This document shows, one piece after another, positions 1 to 21,047 of a DNA stretch of 21,718 nt (positions are counted from its first letter, which is position 1; each line of letters begins with the position of its first letter). The translations under genes and the position numbers were made by a program. Under the pieces are notes generated by a model. That model made no database searches. It had not been told where the DNA came from and saw only the letters and a list, made by a program, of their open reading frames with translations. Source of the DNA: a virus; IMG/VR virus record IMGVR_UViG_3300027782_000410, positions 1-21,718 of that record. The stretch is one strand, 5' to 3'.

Positions 1-68
1 TTAAATTCAACAGTAGTCTCTGTATTATGACCAGAGATGTTGTCTATTTGTTTAAAAATATATTTCAT
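1..68 (-). CDS. Partial CDS (N-terminus only), unknown phage protein
   Basis: Only the first 22 codons are inside the window; the gene runs off its low-coordinate edge. The ATG overlaps the TGA stop of the DsbA-like gene (ATGA), the usual junction here, which fixes the start. The visible peptide begins MKYIFKQIDNISGHNTE and continues into a beta-strand-like TTVEF. From memory, small phage proteins with this kind of start are common in T4-like environmental phages, but I cannot name a function. The rest of the gene is needed to identify it. Confidence 0.6.
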   Translation of the reverse strand, partial: MKYIFKQIDNISGHNTETTVEF

Positions 69-337
69 TTTACAACCGTTTCATAAAGAGTTTCAAATTG
101 GTCTTGCACAGCAACTTCTTCATCATAGTTCTGTTTGAAATAGACCTTCACCATTTTAGCAACTACTTTTTTCGGTAGTTGCAATTGTTTACTGATATCA
201 GTAACCGCTTCTCTAATAAATTCTTTCTCACCTTGTGCTCTTGCCATTGAATCTGAGCAGTCACGAATGACTTTCAACAACTTTTCACGGTCTGCTGGGT
301 TTGAAATTTGATTAACACTCACTTGCTGAATAGCCAT
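65..337 (-). CDS. dsbA: DsbA-like double-stranded DNA-binding protein (T4 DsbA family)
   Basis: A 90-residue protein whose length and pattern match T4 DsbA (89 residues), a small helical double-stranded DNA-binding protein linked to late transcription in T4. The resemblance covers roughly residues 36-90: a GxxExI segment, a central basic stretch (QLPKKVVAKMVKVYFKQN) aligning with T4's GVDGKMFNRLLALYHKDN, an acidic EEVAVQDQFE segment and the end LYETVVK against LYDTVFSK. An AGGAG Shine-Dalgarno sits 6 nt before the ATG. Upstream lies a small membrane protein gene; downstream an ATGA overlap joins it to the next gene. In T4 dsbA is next to rnh; here rnh is about 13 kb away. The family call comes from a remembered sequence, not from a search. 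Confidence 0.75.
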   Translation of the reverse strand: MAIQQVSVNQISNPADREKLLKVIRDCSDSMARAQGEKEFIREAVTDISKQLQLPKKVVAKMVKVYFKQNYDEEVAVQDQFETLYETVVK

Positions 338-353
338 AATATACTCCTAAAAA

Positions 354-626
354 TTATTTCTTAATTGGAACGCCTGTGTTATGAGATTGTGCTGATGCGG
401 CAAACGCAATACAGATAATATCATCACTCTTCGCATAAGAACATCTTACTGATAAAGGATCGATTCCCTTTGCAATTGCAGTATTGATGTTTTCTGCCAT
501 TAACTTTCTGTCATTCACTCCGTAGTAACCGAGTCCTATAATGGCAGAAAGAAAAATTAATGTTATACAAATAGTAATTGTTGAATCTAACTTTGGTATT
601 AAACTTGATATGTTTACTGGTTTCAT
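354..626 (-). CDS. Small single-pass membrane protein, unknown function
   Basis: A 90-residue protein with a hydrophobic segment at about residues 16-37 (TITICITLIFLSAIIGLGYYG), then a soluble tail with two cysteines (RCSYAKSDDIICIAFA). The tail pattern ENIxxAIxKGIDPLSVRC is one I associate with small proteins of T4-like phages, but no function is known to me. The ATG overlaps the stop of the cell-wall hydrolase gene (ATGA), and a good Shine-Dalgarno (AAAGGCG) lies just upstream, so the two are probably translationally coupled. A membrane protein coupled to a muralytic enzyme might act in lysis (holin or spanin-like role), but that is inference from position only. A possible promoter inside the hydrolase gene (791-820) would also read this gene. 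Confidence 0.75.
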   Translation of the reverse strand: MKPVNISSLIPKLDSTITICITLIFLSAIIGLGYYGVNDRKLMAENINTAIAKGIDPLSVRCSYAKSDDIICIAFAASAQSHNTGVPIKK

Positions 627-1168
627 ATCGCCTTTCTGTTATAAAAAATGTGTCGACCAATTACTGCCGTAGTCTCCATGTTTTTCCATCCAGGTTTTAC
701 ATAATCGGCATGATAAAACAATGCACCGTTGGATGGGTCTATCATTCTGTCTGAGTTCGCATACACTAATGTAGCTAATTCTCTAACGCTATTATACAAC
801 GAATTGTTACTGGTTGTCAAGCTTTTATTGGCAGAAATGTTATGTTGCCTGTCTTCACAATACCAAGAAAATTGGCATACATTCCTAATTTTTTGTTTGA
901 CCACACCACAAATATCATTCTCAAAAATACCCGATTTGACCCGGTTTAAGGTAACAAACGCAACTGCTATTTGTCCTTCTTTTGGCTCATAACCAGATTC
1001 AAAGTAAATGTTTTCTGCTAAACATTCTACTTCTTGTTTTGCTTGTGGTGATAAATTATTAAAGTTTGTTTTGAACGGCATATTGTAACTTATGCTGTGA
1101 GACATTCCAAAACTGAATGTTAGTATTGCCGTGATTAGGCTGATACTAATGAGATATCTTGTTTTCAT
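623..1168 (-). CDS. SleB-type cell-wall hydrolase (Hydrolase_2 family)
   Basis: A 181-residue protein with an N-terminal signal or anchor segment (about residues 5-22, ISISLITAILTFSFGM) and a SleB/CwlJ-like catalytic domain from about residue 47 to the end. Diagnostic features are LAENIYFESGYEPKEGQIAVAF (start about residue 50; the Glu in AENIYxE is the proposed catalytic residue of the family), then VxLNRV, a cysteine-bearing CQFSWYC segment and a late GALFYHADYVKPGW segment. These enzymes cleave peptidoglycan glycan strands; in a phage the likely jobs are lysis or entry. The N-terminal hydrophobic stretch suggests Sec export. AAGGAG precedes the ATG by 7 nt. It follows a hairpin terminator (1185-1215), so it may need its own promoter or read-through. 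Downstream overlap is ATGA. Confidence 0.88.
   Translation of the reverse strand: MKTRYLISISLITAILTFSFGMSHSISYNMPFKTNFNNLSPQAKQEVECLAENIYFESGYEPKEGQIAVAFVTLNRVKSGIFENDICGVVKQKIRNVCQFSWYCEDRQHNISANKSLTTSNNSLYNSVRELATLVYANSDRMIDPSNGALFYHADYVKPGWKNMETTAVIGRHIFYNRKAI
791..820 (-). promoter_or_regulatory. Candidate sigma70-type promoter inside the hydrolase gene
   Basis: On the minus strand TTGACA (820-815) and TATAAT (796-791) are both exact consensus hexamers, separated by 18 nt. The site is inside the hydrolase coding sequence and would transcribe the small membrane protein and dsbA. The 18-nt spacer differs from the 17 nt seen at the other promoters here, and an intragenic match may be chance, so confidence is moderate. 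Confidence 0.5.
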
Positions 1169-1561: not shown

Positions 1562-1738
1562 TTAGTCATTCCAATGTCGCAAAACACCGGCGATAATCAC
1601 AAAATTTGTTATAATGTATATTAACACAATGATTGAACGAATAGTGGCAATCTTATCCGCCTCAGTATCATCTGTTGATGCTTTTTCCCCTAGTGCCTTT
1701 GCCCAAAGTCTCCAAATTTTAATCCCAAAGGCCTTCAT
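1562..1738 (-). CDS. Small membrane protein with amphipathic N-terminus (58 aa)
   Basis: The open frame starts at 1801, but the likely start is the ATG at 1738 (MKAFGIKIWRLWAKALGEKA), which cuts the overlap with the upstream gene to 20 nt. The first 20 residues form a basic, Trp-rich amphipathic helix; an acidic linker (STDDTEADK) follows; residues about 34-52 (IRSIIVLIYIITNFVIIAGV) form one membrane segment. Short proteins of this shape occur in T4-like environmental phages, with no known role. The Shine-Dalgarno is weak (GGTAAA), consistent with coupling to the upstream gene. Downstream, an imperfect hairpin (ACCAGC, 13 nt, GCTGGT on the minus strand) lacks a T-run, so I do not call a terminator. 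Confidence 0.65.
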   Translation of the reverse strand: MKAFGIKIWRLWAKALGEKASTDDTEADKIATIRSIIVLIYIITNFVIIAGVLRHWND

Positions 1739-2390
1739 AATATTTACCAAATAAACGGAATCCATTAGTGATTCTTTTTTGAACTTCTTGCATACCATCA
1801 AAATCTAATTTATAGGTATGTTTCGGTCCATCAATCCATTCATACATTGTTGCTTTACCATTTTCATCCCATTGACAAGCAACTGTCTTCTTATCGAATT
1901 CACCTGAACTAAATTTTTCTTGCCATGTATCATCAACTTTACATTCAAATGCAAAAATCATTTCACCGAGAACATAATCCCATCTTTTGAAATGATTTTC
2001 ATCAGTATCATATTCATTTTCTTTTGCTGGTGCTGATGTAGACTTTAATTCTTCTGGCACATCTTCATCATCAACAAAAGGTGCACCGTGTTTGTCTTTT
2101 TGTAATTGTTTCAACATTGGCAGAATAATATCTGCTAAAGTATGATCCATTGACCAAGTATCCCATCGGTCAATCTTCACATACTTAATTTCTGGATGAA
2201 CAAAGTCTAAAAACTTTTGCCATGCAACACAAAATGGAGTTAGAAAATCAACCCACTTGTCGTATTTGTGACCAGGAACATCTTCATGGTTATAAAACAC
2301 ATCTTCATCTTTTTCCCAAAAACAAATCACTTTGAGAATAGTGTATGGTGACACCCAATGGTGTCGATAATTACTTCTATAAACTTTCAC
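1719..2390 (-). CDS. Conserved phage protein of unknown function (223 aa), GTG start
   Basis: A 223-residue acidic, aromatic-rich protein. The start codon is GTG at 2390, with AGGGA about 6 nt upstream and a GTGA overlap with the preceding 49-residue gene, which together fix the start. Segments that look conserved are KIDRWDTWSMDHTLADIILPMLKQL (from about residue 72), HGAPFVDDEDVP, and NHFKRWDYVLGEMIFAFE. The last resembles a family I remember from many T4-like phages with no assigned function. The central acidic linker (ENEYDTDENHFK) separates an N-terminal half from a C-terminal half containing WQEKFSSGEFD and a final GMQEVQKRITNGFRLFGKYYEGLW helix. No catalytic motif is evident. Confidence 0.85.
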   Translation of the reverse strand: MKVYRSNYRHHWVSPYTILKVICFWEKDEDVFYNHEDVPGHKYDKWVDFLTPFCVAWQKFLDFVHPEIKYVKIDRWDTWSMDHTLADIILPMLKQLQKDKHGAPFVDDEDVPEELKSTSAPAKENEYDTDENHFKRWDYVLGEMIFAFECKVDDTWQEKFSSGEFDKKTVACQWDENGKATMYEWIDGPKHTYKLDFDGMQEVQKRITNGFRLFGKYYEGLWD

Positions 2391-2539: not shown

Positions 2540-2711
2540 ATTAGTGGATGGTTATTCTGTTACGAGGAAACCATCCGAAACCCTAAGCAGTGTTTAGGCT
2601 GCTAATGCAAATCTTTCATCGTTTGCGTTTAGATGTTTTGCTTGATTTACGGTCATCGCCTACCGTGTCGCCGTCTCTGCTATCTACCGCTGTCGAAACC
2701 AAGTCAGCCCC
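2540..2711 (-). ncRNA. tmRNA coding piece with tag ANDERFALAA
   Basis: The 5' end at 2711 begins GGGGCUGACUUGGUUUCGAC, matching the conserved tmRNA start and D-loop region. A hairpin ACGGU/ACCGU (2666-2662 with 2653-2649) sits where pseudoknot PK1 is expected. The tag frame runs from the resume codon GCA (2626-2624) through AAC GAT GAA AGA TTT GCA TTA GCA GCC to TAA (2596-2594). The stop lies within a CCUAA/UUAGG stem, as in other tmRNAs. A final 8-bp hairpin (GGATGGTT with AACCATCC, 2576-2546) closes the piece. The 3' end is an estimate; the next gene starts at 2536. Confidence 0.9.
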
Positions 2712-2716
2712 ATCAG

Positions 2717-2772
2717 AAGTATATTGCCACTTTCGTGTTTGCTTCCAGAATACTCGGATCGTCAATATACTT
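2717..2772 (-). repeat. Inverted repeat bounding the tmRNA intervening segment
   Basis: CAATATACTT (2763-2772) and AAGTATATTG (2717-2726) are perfect 10-bp inverted repeats. In the precursor RNA they would form a long hairpin stacked next to the acceptor stem, with only 1-5 nt between the repeat arms and the mature RNA ends. Removal of this 62-nt segment would need 3' trimming after CCA and, by analogy with known permuted tmRNAs, RNase P cleavage at the GGGG 5' end. Confidence 0.85.
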
Positions 2773-2773
2773 T

Positions 2774-2827
2774 TGGTGGAGCTGGGCGGAATCGAACCGC
2801 CGTCCAACAGTCCTTCACTTTGAAGGG
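2774..2827 (-). ncRNA. tmRNA acceptor piece (3' half of the molecule)
   Basis: On the minus strand a small hairpin (CCTTCA, AAG, TGAAGG at 2826-2812) leads to CUGU (P2 strand), then a T-arm of GGCGG, loop UUCGAUU, CCGCC, then the acceptor strand CAGCUCC and ACCA ending at 2774. The CCA is encoded. The piece starts where the upstream nuclease gene stops (TAA at 2831-2829), so the 5' end is probably made by cleavage in or just after that gene's end. The exact 5' end is inferred. Confidence 0.85.
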
Positions 2828-2828
2828 A

Positions 2829-3503
2829 TTACGACAATTTCTTCCAATAACTATCTATAAATTTATTCAATTCAGGTATATACTTTGTTTTGTTTCTCAC
2901 AAATATCTGTGGGAAATCTTCAACTACTGCTATAGCAACGACCAACTGTTCAATCGGTTGACCTGTTCTCTCTTCAAACATATTTGCATATGCGGTACAT
3001 TGCATAAAGTAATTTAAAATATAATCTTCATCTTTAGACTTTGATGCAGTTTTAAAATCAATTACAGATAACTTACCATCCCATTCTGCAATACAATCTA
3101 CTCTGCCTGCCATTCTCAACTCATTTGAATATAATGCTTGTTCTAATGAATAGATGTTGCCAATATTCTTATCAAGATATGGTTTCAAAGCAAAAAACAA
3201 TTCTTTAGTGTCAGGCATCATTGTTTGTATTTTCATATCACTCATTTCATTGAGTAAGTATTTTTCACAAACGGTGTGTAATTTAGTACCACGACCAGAT
3301 GCTGCCCTAGAAATCTTGTTTGCGACTTCAGCACCAACCCTATCCCGCCATTCAAAAATAGCTTTCTTACTATACTCCGACAATACAGTAGTCACAGAAG
3401 GATAAACTTTACCCTCTGGTGTTGTGTATTGTCTTCCGTTCTCCGTTGTAACGGCTGTCAAATCAAAATTTAATGATTCAAGTTTTACATGATTAAATGT
3501 CAT
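2829..3503 (-). CDS. PD-(D/E)XK family exonuclease (RecB/Cas4-like)
   Basis: A 224-residue protein with the RecB/Cas4-type nuclease core: GRGTKLHTVCEKYL (about residues 70-83, the H and E of motif I), GRVDCIAEWDGKLSVIDFKTA (from residue 133, with D136 and the D149-x-K151 pair as metal-binding and catalytic residues), and a later QCTAYANMFEE helix (Q168) typical of this superfamily. An N-terminal TPEGKVYPSVTTVLSEYSKK segment is common in phage members. It probably acts as a DNA exonuclease in phage replication, recombination or host DNA breakdown. It starts on a TAATG overlap with the upstream gene, and its stop abuts the tmRNA acceptor piece, so message and tmRNA precursor are probably one transcript. 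The subfamily cannot be settled without a profile search. Confidence 0.85.
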   Translation of the reverse strand: MTFNHVKLESLNFDLTAVTTENGRQYTTPEGKVYPSVTTVLSEYSKKAIFEWRDRVGAEVANKISRAASGRGTKLHTVCEKYLLNEMSDMKIQTMMPDTKELFFALKPYLDKNIGNIYSLEQALYSNELRMAGRVDCIAEWDGKLSVIDFKTASKSKDEDYILNYFMQCTAYANMFEERTGQPIEQLVVAIAVVEDFPQIFVRNKTKYIPELNKFIDSYWKKLS

Positions 3504-12571: not shown

Positions 12572-13008
12572 TTTGCTTTTCCGAGCATATTCTTATCGTT
12601 ATATGCTTCTCTAATCAATTTAGGTGTAAGAAAAGGAACTTTTAAGTCCTTCTTAATGCATCGAACCAACAATTCTGCTTCATCTTTGTGTAAAGACACC
12701 AAGAGAATCTCCAACAGATTTGATAACTTTTTTGGTTCAACATTAGTTCGTTTTGGATGATTTTTAACAAACCGATATAGTTTGTTCATCTCCATATCCA
12801 AGTAAGTATAGTTTAAACCAGCGGGAGAGATATCTGGTTTATAGTTTGGTATTTCAACATCAAATACAATAGCTGGATTAAAAGCTGCCTCTAAGAATTC
12901 ACGAAAACTTTTATGGTCGTGTTCTTTTAGGACTTTAATCTTAGCTGCTTTATCTTCTGCTTTTTGGAAGTCTTCAAGGACCTCGGAATATAGTTTTTCT
13001 GCACTCAT
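12568..13008 (-). CDS. DUF6433-type conserved phage protein (146 aa)
   Basis: The layout matches a family I remember from T4-like cyanophages and relatives (DUF6433): an N-terminal helix (LYSEVLEDFQKAEDKAAKIKVLKEHD), then FREFLEAAFNPAIVFDVE, a P-x-Y-x-P region, then LYRFVKNHPKRTNVEPKKLSNLLEILLVSLHKDEAELLVRCIKKDL, and a final LTPKLIREAYND. The function is unknown. In related phages it is usually a single gene among replication or nucleotide genes, which fits its place next to RNase H. The start is in a TAATG junction with rnh; the stop overlaps the glycosyltransferase start by ATGA. Confidence 0.75.
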   Translation of the reverse strand: MSAEKLYSEVLEDFQKAEDKAAKIKVLKEHDHKSFREFLEAAFNPAIVFDVEIPNYKPDISPAGLNYTYLDMEMNKLYRFVKNHPKRTNVEPKKLSNLLEILLVSLHKDEAELLVRCIKKDLKVPFLTPKLIREAYNDKNMLGKAK

Positions 13009-13856
13009 TAGAATTCATCAATCACTTCAAGTAGGTTTTTGAGACGGTTCGCAATCATATAATTCATAAACTCTTGCTTTGTTTTACCTTTTGCGTTCTC
13101 ATAGGTATCTAGTATCGCAATTTTCAGAGATTCGGGTATTTTTGTCAAATCAATCAAAACTTCATTCCTAGAATAGTTTCGTAACATATCTTCATTACAA
13201 AATTCTTTTGGTTCTTGGTTCATCCAACCAATAATCTTTGCCTCTGTGATGGGTTTCTGGCGACCGCCAGTTACGAATACATCATCAGCAGACAATATGT
13301 TAGGAATGCCATCACCTTTGTCGCCACGGATAATCAACTGTTTAAGTTGAGCGGCAGGTAATGGTTCTTTAATTTGTTTTTTTAGAATCGGTGAATATTG
13401 TTCTACATTAGGAAACTTTTGCAATTGTGCAAAGTCTTTGTCTGAGGACAAAATCATAATCTTTTCCGTTGCGGAAAATTTAAGTGCTAGTGTTGCAATA
13501 ATATCATCTGCCTCACAAGTATCAACATCAATCACCTTGTAAGGCGAATGGTCTTTTAGTTCTTGTTTAATTTTACCAAGACATTCAAAGATTGTGTTCC
13601 AATCGTGACCAGAAGATTCTCTTGCTTTCTTTCTACCCGCTTTATAGTGTGGATATATTTCTCGGCGCCAATATTTTTTATTGTCGCAAGCAATAATAAT
13701 TTCAGGACCGTGGGAAGATTTATACTTCTTCACATAGGTACGAATGGTGTTTAAAATCATATGACGAACAAGGCTCTCATCAACTGCCGTTTTTGAAGAG
13801 CCAATCTGTTCCATCAGATTAGAGATTGCTACCTGGTTAAAGTCGAATATTATCAT
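13008..13856 (-). CDS. rnh: T4 RNase H-type 5'-3' exonuclease (FEN family)
   Basis: Close in length and motif order to T4 RNase H (305 residues), which removes RNA primers and flaps from lagging strands. The 282-residue protein has D5 in MIIFDFNQVAIS (T4: LIDFSQIALS), VRHMILNTIR (T4: VRHLILNSIK), D58 in ACDNKKYWRREIYPHYKAGRKKARE, the acidic cluster E115-A-D117-D118 (T4: EADDHIA), SSDKDFAQLQKFPNVEQYSP (T4: SSDGDFTQLHKYPNVKQWSP), and GDKGDGIPN (T4: GDKKDNVAS), where D179 and D182 bind the second metal. All expected metal ligands are visible. The C-terminal NRLKNLLEVIDEF also matches T4 (KLTNSINEF). No Shine-Dalgarno is obvious. The comparison is from memory but the match is strong. Confidence 0.95.
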   Translation of the reverse strand: MIIFDFNQVAISNLMEQIGSSKTAVDESLVRHMILNTIRTYVKKYKSSHGPEIIIACDNKKYWRREIYPHYKAGRKKARESSGHDWNTIFECLGKIKQELKDHSPYKVIDVDTCEADDIIATLALKFSATEKIMILSSDKDFAQLQKFPNVEQYSPILKKQIKEPLPAAQLKQLIIRGDKGDGIPNILSADDVFVTGGRQKPITEAKIIGWMNQEPKEFCNEDMLRNYSRNEVLIDLTKIPESLKIAILDTYENAKGKTKQEFMNYMIANRLKNLLEVIDEF

Positions 13857-18426: not shown

Positions 18427-18975
18427 TTATAGAACGATTGGTAACCATAACCAAAGTGCTTGACTCATTAACAATGCACCCAATGCACCAACACCAATAC
18501 TTGCTTTATATAATCTGTTGTTTACTGCCAAAATACTTGCAGTCAATAATACAATAGCAATTTGAAATAAACTTCCTGCATATGTGTACCATGGACTTCT
18601 TGATTTGGCAACTGCACGGTCTGCCTCTAGTTTACGAGCCTTCTCCATCAATTCTTTTTTACCTTCACCAGTTTTTGGATCAGATTCATATCTATCAATT
18701 TTTGCTTTTAACTTTTCAATTTTCGCTGTGTCTTTACGAACAACAGCATCATCAAGTGATTGTTCTGCTAATGTTTGTTTGATAGACTTAGCTTGATAAA
18801 ATGCCCAAGTGTTATTTGCATCAATTGTATTATTTAAAACTTTACTGCCATTACTGCCACCCATTAGAGTATTGATTGCAAGTAAGGCTGCAAGTATGGT
18901 AATTACCCAACCTGCTTTATCTTTAATTAGTGCTTCTCTTTCAGAGCGTGATAATGGTTTAACTTCTGTTGTCAT
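18427..18975 (-). CDS. DUF4337-like membrane protein (182 aa)
   Basis: The order of segments fits DUF4337 proteins: a first membrane helix (AGWVITILAALLAINTLMGG, about 25-44), the signature NNTIDANNTWAFYQAKSIKQTLAEQ (about 53-77), a charged coiled-coil stretch (KIEKLKAKIDRYESDPKTGEGKKELMEKARKLEADR), then two more hydrophobic segments (TYAGSLFQIAIVLLTASILAV; IGVGALGALLMSQALWLWLPIVL). Thus three membrane helices with one extended loop. The family is found in bacteria and phages and has no proven function. It overlaps the stop of the large secreted protein by ATGA, has AAAGGA upstream, and lies among exported proteins, so a joint role at the envelope is likely. Confidence 0.82.
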   Translation of the reverse strand: MTTEVKPLSRSEREALIKDKAGWVITILAALLAINTLMGGSNGSKVLNNTIDANNTWAFYQAKSIKQTLAEQSLDDAVVRKDTAKIEKLKAKIDRYESDPKTGEGKKELMEKARKLEADRAVAKSRSPWYTYAGSLFQIAIVLLTASILAVNNRLYKASIGVGALGALLMSQALWLWLPIVL

Positions 18976-21047
18976 CTTGAGTCCTTTAAATATTGTTGAT
19001 TTGTCATTTGTTCATGCAATCTATCAGTTCCACCAAATAGACCACGACTTAATCTTGCATTATCTACATTACGCTGATTAGCATATGCAGTATATGGTTT
19101 ATACATTTGTCCGTCAGGCACAAATGATTTATTATATACATCAAAACCAGGAGTGAATCCCATCGCTTGAATTACAACATTTTGCACAGCAATTTGTTGT
19201 TGCATATTTGTTGCTTTGCCCATGTCATTTGCCAAATCTTTACCTTTTTCAACCATATCTTTTTTAACTGCTGCTTCTCTTCTTTCTTGTAGTTCTTGTC
19301 TTGCAGTTTTAGGTTGGTCAGACTTTTGTTCTTGTTGACCACCTTGCGGTCCTTCTGGTCTACTTTCTGCTTTTCTATCGTCTTGTTTTCTTTCAGCGGC
19401 AGGTGCTGCTGATGCTGGCGCAGGTGGTGCTAATTGAACTGCTGTTGGTGTTGCGTTAGTTGTTGATGATTTGGAAGAAATTGCTTTGTCCACATTGGTA
19501 TCACCAGTTGCAGACACACCAGTTGTAACTGTACCATCGGTGCTAATTGTAGTTGATGCAGTTGTGGTTGTAACTTTTACAGTAATTGGATCATTTGCTT
19601 TTGTAGCAGCAGTATTAGACAATGATTGATTTACTGATGTTGAATCTATTCCTGTTACCAAATACTTGATTGCATATGCCGTTGCATAACCCTCACACTT
19701 ATTACTATAAAGAGAATCTTTAATACATTGTGAATTTAAATATGCCTGTTCGTATCCTGGACATGTTGTGCTATACAGAGGATTCACAGAACATTGATAT
19801 GTTAGATATGCCGATGCATAACTTGGGCAAGAAGGATTTGATAATGGGTTGGCTGTGCATTGTTGAGTAAAGATTGCTTCGGCATAACCAGGACATCCAG
19901 AGTTGTATAGTGGATTAGCTGAACACATCTGAGTTTGATATGCTGCAGCATAACCAGGACAACTTGATGATGATAATGGATTTACTACGCATGGGTCTGG
20001 TGTATATTTCCAATTACTCCATTTATTAAAAACTGCACCAGTACCATTTACTTGGTCAACCATGGCAAAACCACCCATGTCACCTAACAACAATGAGTTA
20101 TTAAAAATATGAGAGTAATTAGTTGAACCAGATGAATTCTGTTCTTCATGCAAATGAGCATTAGAATACAAAATACTTCCATTACTCTTTGTTACTGCAA
20201 CACCTACAGCAATAGATGATGGATCAGTCCTAGAACATCCAAGTGTTCCGTCTGGATTTGTACCAGCAACTGAACACCATGTTCCACCTAAAACATAATC
20301 ATAACCATAATTCAAACCATGTATTTTTAAACCAGCACCAGATAAATCTAATGCTTGATTGATGGCATAACTTTCTGCATACATTCTTCGACTAGTAAGA
20401 ACATCATTATACCCAGCACAAGATGGTGAATACGCTGGATTTCCCATGCATGGGTCTGTTGTATAGTTTAGAGTTAAAGATGGTTCTCTAACTTGTGGTC
20501 CGTAATAACCAGCCCAAAATCTACTATCTTTGCCTGTAAATGATAATGCAATTTGGTCTGCAGCCAGTAAACTTTGAGGAGTAACAAATGTTTGAGTACC
20601 AGTTTTTAATTCAAATCCTTGTGTTGGTGCATTGTAATTATAAGTGTAAGATTGTAGAGCAGTATTATTTCTCAACAATTCAACTTTACCAGATAATGTT
20701 CCAGATTGTTCACCAGAGTTATTAATCTGCCATGAATAGTTATATCCATTAATTTTGATACCAGAATTGGATAAATCTAATGCGTGTTGAATAGCAAACG
20801 CTTCAGCACTAATTCTTTGAGTTGATGTTGCAGTTGTATATCCGAAGATTAAGGTGTTTGTTCCTGCATTAAATGCTGGTCCATTACCACCACCAGAAAA
20901 TCCACCATTCTGTCCTGCAACAGAACCAGACCATGCACCAACTGTTGGTGTAAGGATATTCTGAGATGTTATCGGAGTCTGTGCTTGTGCTTTAGGCAAA
21001 AAAATTGCCAAAAGGATTACAAGCACAAATGACACCAAAAATTTCAT
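18972..21047 (-). CDS. Large secreted protein with duplicated beta domains and 22-residue Cys repeats (691 aa)
   Basis: A clear signal peptide (residues 1-22, ending KAQA-Q) precedes a mature protein of several parts. Domain 1 (about 60-197) and domain 2 (about 218-350) are internal duplicates: AEAFAIQHALDLSNSGIKI matches AESYAINQALDLSGAGLKI. One Cys unit (C200, C210) sits between them. Five units follow in tandem with cysteines at 353/363, 375/385, 397/407, 419/429 and 441/451, exactly 22 residues apart, pattern C-x3-[ND]-x-L-x4-C-x2-Y. A Thr/Ser- then Pro/Ala/Gln-rich linker (about 480-590) leads to a charged helix and a C-terminal region with GFTPGFDVYNKSFVPDGQMYKP. Related Cys-repeat proteins occur, as I recall, in uncultured aquatic phages; function unknown. 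Disulfide formation outside the cytosol is likely. Confidence 0.85.
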   Translation of the reverse strand: MKFLVSFVLVILLAIFLPKAQAQTPITSQNILTPTVGAWSGSVAGQNGGFSGGGNGPAFNAGTNTLIFGYTTATSTQRISAEAFAIQHALDLSNSGIKINGYNYSWQINNSGEQSGTLSGKVELLRNNTALQSYTYNYNAPTQGFELKTGTQTFVTPQSLLAADQIALSFTGKDSRFWAGYYGPQVREPSLTLNYTTDPCMGNPAYSPSCAGYNDVLTSRRMYAESYAINQALDLSGAGLKIHGLNYGYDYVLGGTWCSVAGTNPDGTLGCSRTDPSSIAVGVAVTKSNGSILYSNAHLHEEQNSSGSTNYSHIFNNSLLLGDMGGFAMVDQVNGTGAVFNKWSNWKYTPDPCVVNPLSSSSCPGYAAAYQTQMCSANPLYNSGCPGYAEAIFTQQCTANPLSNPSCPSYASAYLTYQCSVNPLYSTTCPGYEQAYLNSQCIKDSLYSNKCEGYATAYAIKYLVTGIDSTSVNQSLSNTAATKANDPITVKVTTTTASTTISTDGTVTTGVSATGDTNVDKAISSKSSTTNATPTAVQLAPPAPASAAPAAERKQDDRKAESRPEGPQGGQQEQKSDQPKTARQELQERREAAVKKDMVEKGKDLANDMGKATNMQQQIAVQNVVIQAMGFTPGFDVYNKSFVPDGQMYKPYTAYANQRNVDNARLSRGLFGGTDRLHEQMTNQQYLKDSR
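19662..19991 (-). repeat. Five tandem 66-bp coding repeats (22-residue Cys units)
   Basis: Within the large secreted protein, residues 353-462 are five units of exactly 22 codons. Each unit has two cysteines 10 residues apart and a conserved C-P-G-Y-like turn. No unit is lost and there is no spacing drift. The DNA is more diverged than the protein pattern, so the repeats are old and kept by selection. Confidence 0.85.

Follow-up and report, generated by a model that had tools for sequence, protein, structure and literature searches.

Two-piece, circularly permuted tmRNA genes have been described in phages. The 2022 paper on the methylophage Melnitz reports a two-piece tmRNA of the phage's own; its ARAGORN screen of 18,146 phage genomes yielded 53 two-piece tmRNAs, of which 50 are marine or aquatic (PMC9004378). 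A 2025 survey lists 79 unique phage tmRNAs (PMC11915505). The mycobacteriophages Bxz1 and Wildcat and the Bacillus phage G also encode an ssrA, but in the one-piece form (PMC4131195).

The window analyzed here is the entire IMG/VR record IMGVR_UViG_3300027782_000410, a linear viral fragment of 21,718 nt (21.7 kb). It carries a complete circularly permuted tmRNA gene, an ordinary member of the beta type. As two-piece phage tmRNAs are already published, the window tmRNA belongs to a known kind, and its occurrence in a T4-like phage, called unusual by an earlier sequence-only reading of this DNA, had a precedent in Melnitz (PMC9004378). The new part seems to be the presence of protein genes in the intervening segment (IVS) of related phage tmRNA genes.

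Detection and anatomy of the window tmRNA

The covariance model RF01850 (beta_tmRNA) matches positions 2884-2541 on the minus strand from end to end, with a score of 161.2 bits (gathering threshold 84, E 2.5e-50, cmscan). RF04321 (tmRNA_permuted) matches positions 2836-2594 on the same strand, also end to end, with 152.3 bits (gathering threshold 47, E 1e-30). ARAGORN finds a permuted tmRNA at 2503-2866 with the tag ANDERFALAA. The sequence-only reading had proposed a complete two-piece tmRNA and a covariance-model check on the minus strand; two full-length matches far over gathering, with which ARAGORN agrees, bear the proposal out. The beta_tmRNA model scores over the alpha and cyano models, and RF01850 is the match kept for the clan. 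The acceptor piece precedes the coding piece on the same strand, with a removable IVS between them, as is characteristic of the permuted class. The features of the gene are as follows.

Positions 2541-2884, minus strand: whole permuted tmRNA gene (RF01850 match; 2503-2866 by ARAGORN), with a compact RNA core at 2541-2836.
Positions 2774-2836, minus strand: acceptor piece, transcribed first; its 5' end is placed from P2 (the RF04321 alignment starts at 2836) and its 3' end is the encoded ACCA.
Positions 2832-2836, minus strand: P2 strand UGUCG of the acceptor piece, with its partner CGACA at 2666-2670 (covariance-model alignment).
Positions 2785-2801, minus strand: T-arm, GGCGG-TTCGATT-CCGCC (sequence and fold).
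Positions 2778-2784, minus strand: 3' strand of the acceptor stem, CAGCTCC, followed by ACCA at 2777-2774 (sequence).
Positions 2712-2773, minus strand: IVS, 62 nt (sequence and fold).
Positions 2541-2711, minus strand: coding piece, beginning with GGGGCTG (2711-2705; sequence); its 3' end is taken from the RF01850 match.
Positions 2650-2665, minus strand: hairpin CGGT-AGGCGATG-ACCG beside the tag, in a PK1-like position, paired in both covariance-model alignments.
Positions 2594-2626, minus strand: tag frame ANDERFALAA followed by UAA (2596-2594), with Ala as the resume codon (ARAGORN and sequence).
Positions 2546-2576, minus strand: 3' hairpin of the coding piece, GGATGGTT / AACCATCC (sequence).

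The acceptor stem is paired at 7/7 positions between CAGCTCC and GGGGCTG, including the G3-U70 pair. The stop codon of the tag is located in the loop of a small stem (GCAG, 2602-2599, with CTGC, 2590-2587). The 3'-terminal hairpin of the beta_tmRNA model (model positions 305-328) is deleted in the window alignment, and a separate 8-bp hairpin is present at 2576-2546. A 10-bp stem in the IVS (2772-2763 with 2726-2717) lengthens the acceptor stem, and the joint fold of the T-arm, acceptor stem and spacer hairpin has an energy of -38.9 kcal/mol (z -3.3). An ORF test for a Shine-Dalgarno (SD) ORF found none in the window's own 62-nt IVS.

Most of the anatomy in the sequence-only reading stands. 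The ends at 2711 and 2774, the 62-nt spacer (2773-2712), the tag, the 7-bp acceptor stem with a G-U at the third pair, the T-arm, the PK1-like hairpin and the 3' hairpin are all found. Its limit of the feature at 2827 is too short, as the acceptor piece extends upstream to 2836, where the P2 strand begins in the covariance-model alignment.

The carrier is a T4-like phage

The genes that identify the carrier are listed here.

Positions 2829-3503, minus strand: PDDEXK exonuclease gene, directly upstream of the tmRNA (phrog_298, E 9.7e-70; PF12705).
Positions 65-337, minus strand: DsbA-type transcription regulator, a T4-like marker (PF11126, phrog_639).
Positions 13008-13856, minus strand: T4 RNase H-type 5'-3' exonuclease, a T4-like marker (PF02739, and PF09293 for the C-terminal domain).

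The carrier is a T4-like (tevenvirus-type) phage, in agreement with the sequence-only reading, and genes of T4 type flank the tmRNA. No T4-type capsid, portal, terminase or polymerase was seen among the scanned genes of this 21.7-kb fragment. The 3' end of the nuclease ORF overlaps the tmRNA: its stop codon is at 2831-2829, and the P2 strand at 2836-2832 falls within its final codons. The nearest annotated relatives of the nuclease are from the Kyanoviridae phage C48C1 and cyanomyoviruses; C48C1 and P-HM2, compared for exonuclease-based synteny, have no permuted tmRNA match. Elsewhere in the window, positions 18972-21047 (minus strand) encode a protein of 691 codons, without a Pfam or PHROG match, whose N-terminus is signal-like and in which NPL..S..CPGY units are repeated.

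It is highly improbable that the tmRNA is a functionless captured host gene, whether host DNA recently acquired by a phage or part of a mis-assigned bacterial contig. Such a capture would fit the discussion in the Melnitz paper, where tmRNA genes are described as common integration sites that can be carried along in fragments (PMC9004378). Unless the contig is chimeric, however, this reading is refuted by the phage context: the flanking genes, whose bacterial origin would have spoken against the sequence-only reading, are phage genes, and they rule out a bacterial contig as the source of the window. Moreover, the same nuclease adjoins two-piece genes in many contigs, and among 80 viral loci picked by the PDDEXK nuclease protein alone, 38 have a permuted tmRNA. 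Structure and tag are preserved, and in a tree of these short RNAs, which is weakly supported and was used solely to place the nearest neighbors of the window gene, those neighbors are viral and not the sampled bacterial genes. An origin of the closest bacterial beta-type genes in Methylophilaceae was considered and rejected, the RuMP enzyme model TIGR03128 having no match above its cut-off in the genomes that carry these genes.

The host side, SmpB and the tag

Freshwater Burkholderiales (Polynucleobacter, Limnohabitans, Comamonadaceae) commonly have the tag ANDERFALAA, but encode it in one-piece genes. ARAGORN assigns 101 of the Burkholderiales ANDERFALAA genes to the standard form versus one that is clearly permuted. 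RF01850 is passed by only 12/300 Burkholderiales genomes, and by 14/121 genomes in the family to which one of the best-scoring genomes belongs. The closest bacterial scorers (157-169 bits) have tags other than ANDERFALAA. The one-piece tmRNA is the rule among the Burkholderiales sampled, those with the same tag included. Some phages may therefore bring a tmRNA of different structure, with a host-like tag, into the host.

Permuted tmRNAs that are unannotated in the records shown are also present in Pseudomonas phage SM1, Xanthomonas phages XacN1 and Rb1, and Stenotrophomonas phage BUCTxx99 (L154-L157), with tags including ANDTSFDVRLAA and ANDDNFRPALRLAA. XacN1 has two matches of equal score (37231 and 356026), perhaps reflecting a terminal repeat. 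The hosts of these four phages presumably use one-piece tmRNA.

No SmpB turned up in the records of 19 related phages, the majority 90-385 kb in length, whereas 10/14 control genomes were positive. Host SmpB is thus probably needed by the phage RNA, although this phage may encode an SmpB beyond the 21.7-kb fragment. The role suggested by the sequence-only reading, that the phage tmRNA supplies or replaces host ribosome rescue, is plausible; as SmpB was not found in the related records, the phage is unlikely to replace the entire pathway.

The SmpB result would also suit a decoy, an RNA that inhibits host trans-translation by SmpB titration or ribosome competition and does no rescue of its own. 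Phage DS6A has a sequence with only the tmRNA domain, and a similar molecule strongly inhibits tmRNA, perhaps through SmpB titration (PMC4131195). A decoy needs no tag, however. The tag frame of the window gene is intact and terminated by a stop codon, ANDERFALAA is kept through synonymous change in 28 different DNA encodings among the phage and viral permuted genes, and most other phage tags end in LAA or a similar string of residues. We regard the decoy as quite improbable and favor a working rescue RNA. Some phage tags are unusual, being longer or ending in RLAA, RIAA or LMAA (for example ANDAYFGDERLAA and ANEDRFLMAA), and may change the choice of protease.

Exchange of the acceptor module between sister contigs

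Among 128 distinct phage and viral permuted tmRNA genes, several pair types are found at acceptor pairs 4-6 and T-stem pairs 1-3. Pairing was itself a criterion of the search for this set, so its presence in all the genes carries no weight; what counts is the variety of pair types, which was not a criterion. The acceptor search pattern included genes with the T-loop GGCAGTA.

The sister contig L145/L160 has a nuclease 96% identical to that of the window, and DNA identity is about 82-90% over several kb and about 90% locally. The two genes are near-identical upstream of the T-stem and across most of the coding piece. Between these regions, the T-stem (GGGAG/CTCCC), the acceptor stem (CACCTCC/GGGGGTG) and the IVS (98 nt) of L145 are all unlike those of the window, with pairing kept. 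Judged by this replacement, the T-stem, acceptor stem and IVS act as an exchangeable module in this phage group.

The L145 tmRNA (765-1111, plus strand) also contains an ORF in its IVS. The IVS begins with AAAGGACTTTTATG, and the ORF encodes MFENWHWVYLWGIAVFVNYMFCLIKSF, its frame continuing into the coding piece. It has the SD features of the cassettes defined below, except for the stop at -1. Homologs of this ORF are present in the tmRNAs of L439/L510, L486, L426/L507, L540, L541 and L622, with mostly synonymous differences.

Protein genes in the IVS of related phage tmRNAs

A cassette is defined here by an SD sequence just past the encoded CCA, a start codon 10-15 nt from the CCA, and a stop just ahead of the coding piece. 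The recurring geometry is ..CCACCA, then TAAGGA..ATG .. TCTTTATGA T, then GGG. In 111 distinct viral genes, fetched regardless of ORFs, an SD ORF of at least 20 codons starting 6-19 nt after the CCA is found in 14. In a set of 107 spacers from loci not selected for ORFs, 10 have both an SD start near the CCA and a stop at -1 (exactly one base before the coding piece); 300 shuffles with both spacer ends preserved gave 1.0 on average and never more than 4. With the targeted scans included, 75 distinct phage tmRNA genes have an SD ORF just past the encoded CCA, encoding 67 peptides; as those scans selected for SD and ATG, their ORFs are judged solely by homology, dN/dS and the position of the stop. 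The stop is at -1 in 39/75.

Full-length covariance matches span the inserts, for instance in L586 (136 bits), L199 (140), L042 (139), L141 (136), L067 (120) and L465 (114). The clearest domain assignment is located in the first of these.

L586, positions 28-539, minus strand: thioredoxin with a CGPC motif, 84 codons, wholly between the two tmRNA halves (PF00085, 4.1e-21).

In addition, the IVS of L455 encodes a CxxCxxCC protein (PF03692), that of L557 has an ORF with a PGDYG match, and that of L130 has a 122-codon ORF with only a sub-threshold Pfam match and no phage match.

Homologous cassettes occur in different tmRNA backgrounds, with differences chiefly at third positions. In families A and B, dN/dS is about 0.05-0.3 in most well-diverged pairs; the one pair compared in family C is too close to inform dN/dS. 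For L046 and L499 the differences by codon position are [3,0,10] (dN 0.02 versus dS 1.3), and for L510 and L486 they are [2,0,8] (dN 0.05 versus dS 0.9). These ORFs are under coding constraint.

Several cassettes have counterparts outside the tmRNA. The L199 cassette is phrog_1679 and resembles the window ORF at 1562-1801 (minus strand), a free-standing gene for a small membrane protein. In L130, homologs of the cassettes of L042 and L175 stand as ordinary genes right upstream of the tmRNA, and a homolog of the L455 cassette is upstream of the tmRNA in L486. Modules are also stacked, as in L536, where one IVS contains two ORFs. L452 (near 6661) and L164 have relic junctions, in which the start of a coding piece has been joined to a second acceptor end. 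The ORFs are also found in alpha-type phage tmRNAs, namely L435 (62 codons, stop at -1), L421 and L453. The Melnitz IVS (142 nt; L503 1501-1833, corresponding to MZ577097 46013-46345) contains an SD ORF that is missing from the annotation, extends into the coding piece and is identical across the four Melnitz isolates. The IVS of 24 sampled bacterial genes contained no SD ORF of the phage kind; the sole start (L360) reads through into the coding piece.

The ORFs could be chance open frames in AT-rich spacers. Many of them are very short (20-30 codons), and TGAT stands ahead of the coding piece in 110/128 genes, ORF-less spacers included, so it is primarily an RNA feature that the ORFs use as a stop. 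Chance is improbable as an explanation, however, in view of the excess over the shuffles, the third-position bias and low dN/dS in families A and B, the location of the thioredoxin, the CxxCxxCC protein and the 122-codon ORF in the IVS, and the free-standing homologs elsewhere in phage genomes. The IVS ORFs of the relatives look like real genes, and with good confidence, taken alone, we consider them to be nested small protein genes. They would have been hidden from annotation because ARAGORN and annotators label the entire region as tmRNA, the Melnitz record being an example.

A model for the phage tmRNA

We conclude with high confidence that the two-piece tmRNA gene in the window is of a working type and belongs to a T4-like phage, and that the IVS is a gene slot in many of its relatives. 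A single transcript, running in the same direction as the upstream nuclease gene, would contain the acceptor piece, IVS and coding piece. Host tRNA-processing enzymes would cut past the encoded CCA and ahead of GGGG, the IVS being discarded, and the acceptor stem and P2 would hold both pieces together. Host AlaRS, SmpB and EF-Tu are expected to load the phage tmRNA onto ribosomes stalled at broken messages, where the nascent chain would receive the (A)ANDERFALAA tag and the ribosome would be freed. In many relatives, the IVS would house a small protein gene.

In the ORF-bearing genes, 5-7/7 of the first IVS positions are paired with the IVS 3' end. As the SD sequence lies within a stem that extends the acceptor stem, tRNA-like folding could be in competition with translation of the nested gene; alternatively, the IVS, once excised, could function as a short mRNA. 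A coupling of tmRNA maturation and nested-gene translation, taken by itself, is doubtful. The broader proposal is somewhat favored: that the phage IVS, in beta- and alpha-type genes, is a dedicated slot for small protein genes, that maturation and translation may interact there or the excised IVS may be a tiny mRNA, and that the modules are swapped and stacked. These genes offer a natural system for asking how translation and RNA processing share one transcript.

Comparison with known systems

The IVS genes have some likeness to tmRNAs with a group I intron and homing endonuclease gene, where an extra element inside the tmRNA gene is also gone from the mature RNA (PMC11915505). The cases in that survey differ from the phage IVS genes, being T-loop introns, or one tRNA-Ala and one repetitive element in the IVS. 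The open-access text of the survey, which names a tRNA gene and a repeat, has no mention of a protein gene in the IVS of a permuted tmRNA (PMC11915505). Protein genes within phage tmRNA IVS seem, provisionally, to be unreported in this text and in the other open-access literature searched. A non-coding RNA gene whose two halves enclose a protein gene, such as the thioredoxin, would be an uncommon arrangement of a gene within a gene. Such nested genes would account for part of the long phage spacers: the IVS of the 24 sampled bacterial genes is 4-65 nt long, generally shorter than in phages (median 71, range 24-382).

The window gene has all core parts in common with the bacterial beta-type permuted tmRNA (RF01850), and some Burkholderiales genes score like it (157-169 bits) and have stretches such as CGGTAGGCGATGACCGTAAATCAAGCAAA in common with it. 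The terminal hairpin of the RF01850 model is absent from the window gene.

Melnitz (MZ577097), a Methylophilales phage, is like the window in having a permuted tmRNA, in being T4-like (Kyanoviridae), and in the position of the tmRNA downstream of a PDDEXK nuclease. Its tmRNA is alpha-type (RF01849, 106.7 bits), has the tag ANDNYVPVDYALAA and carries a glutamine riboswitch on its 3' side, whereas the window tmRNA is beta-type with ANDERFALAA. SmpB was neither sought nor reported in the Melnitz paper (PMC9004378). The gene order in Melnitz is nuclease, two small genes, tmRNA and late-transcription coactivator; in the window the tmRNA is joined directly to the nuclease gene. The window gene is a clean beta-type addition to the little studied set of phage rescue RNAs.
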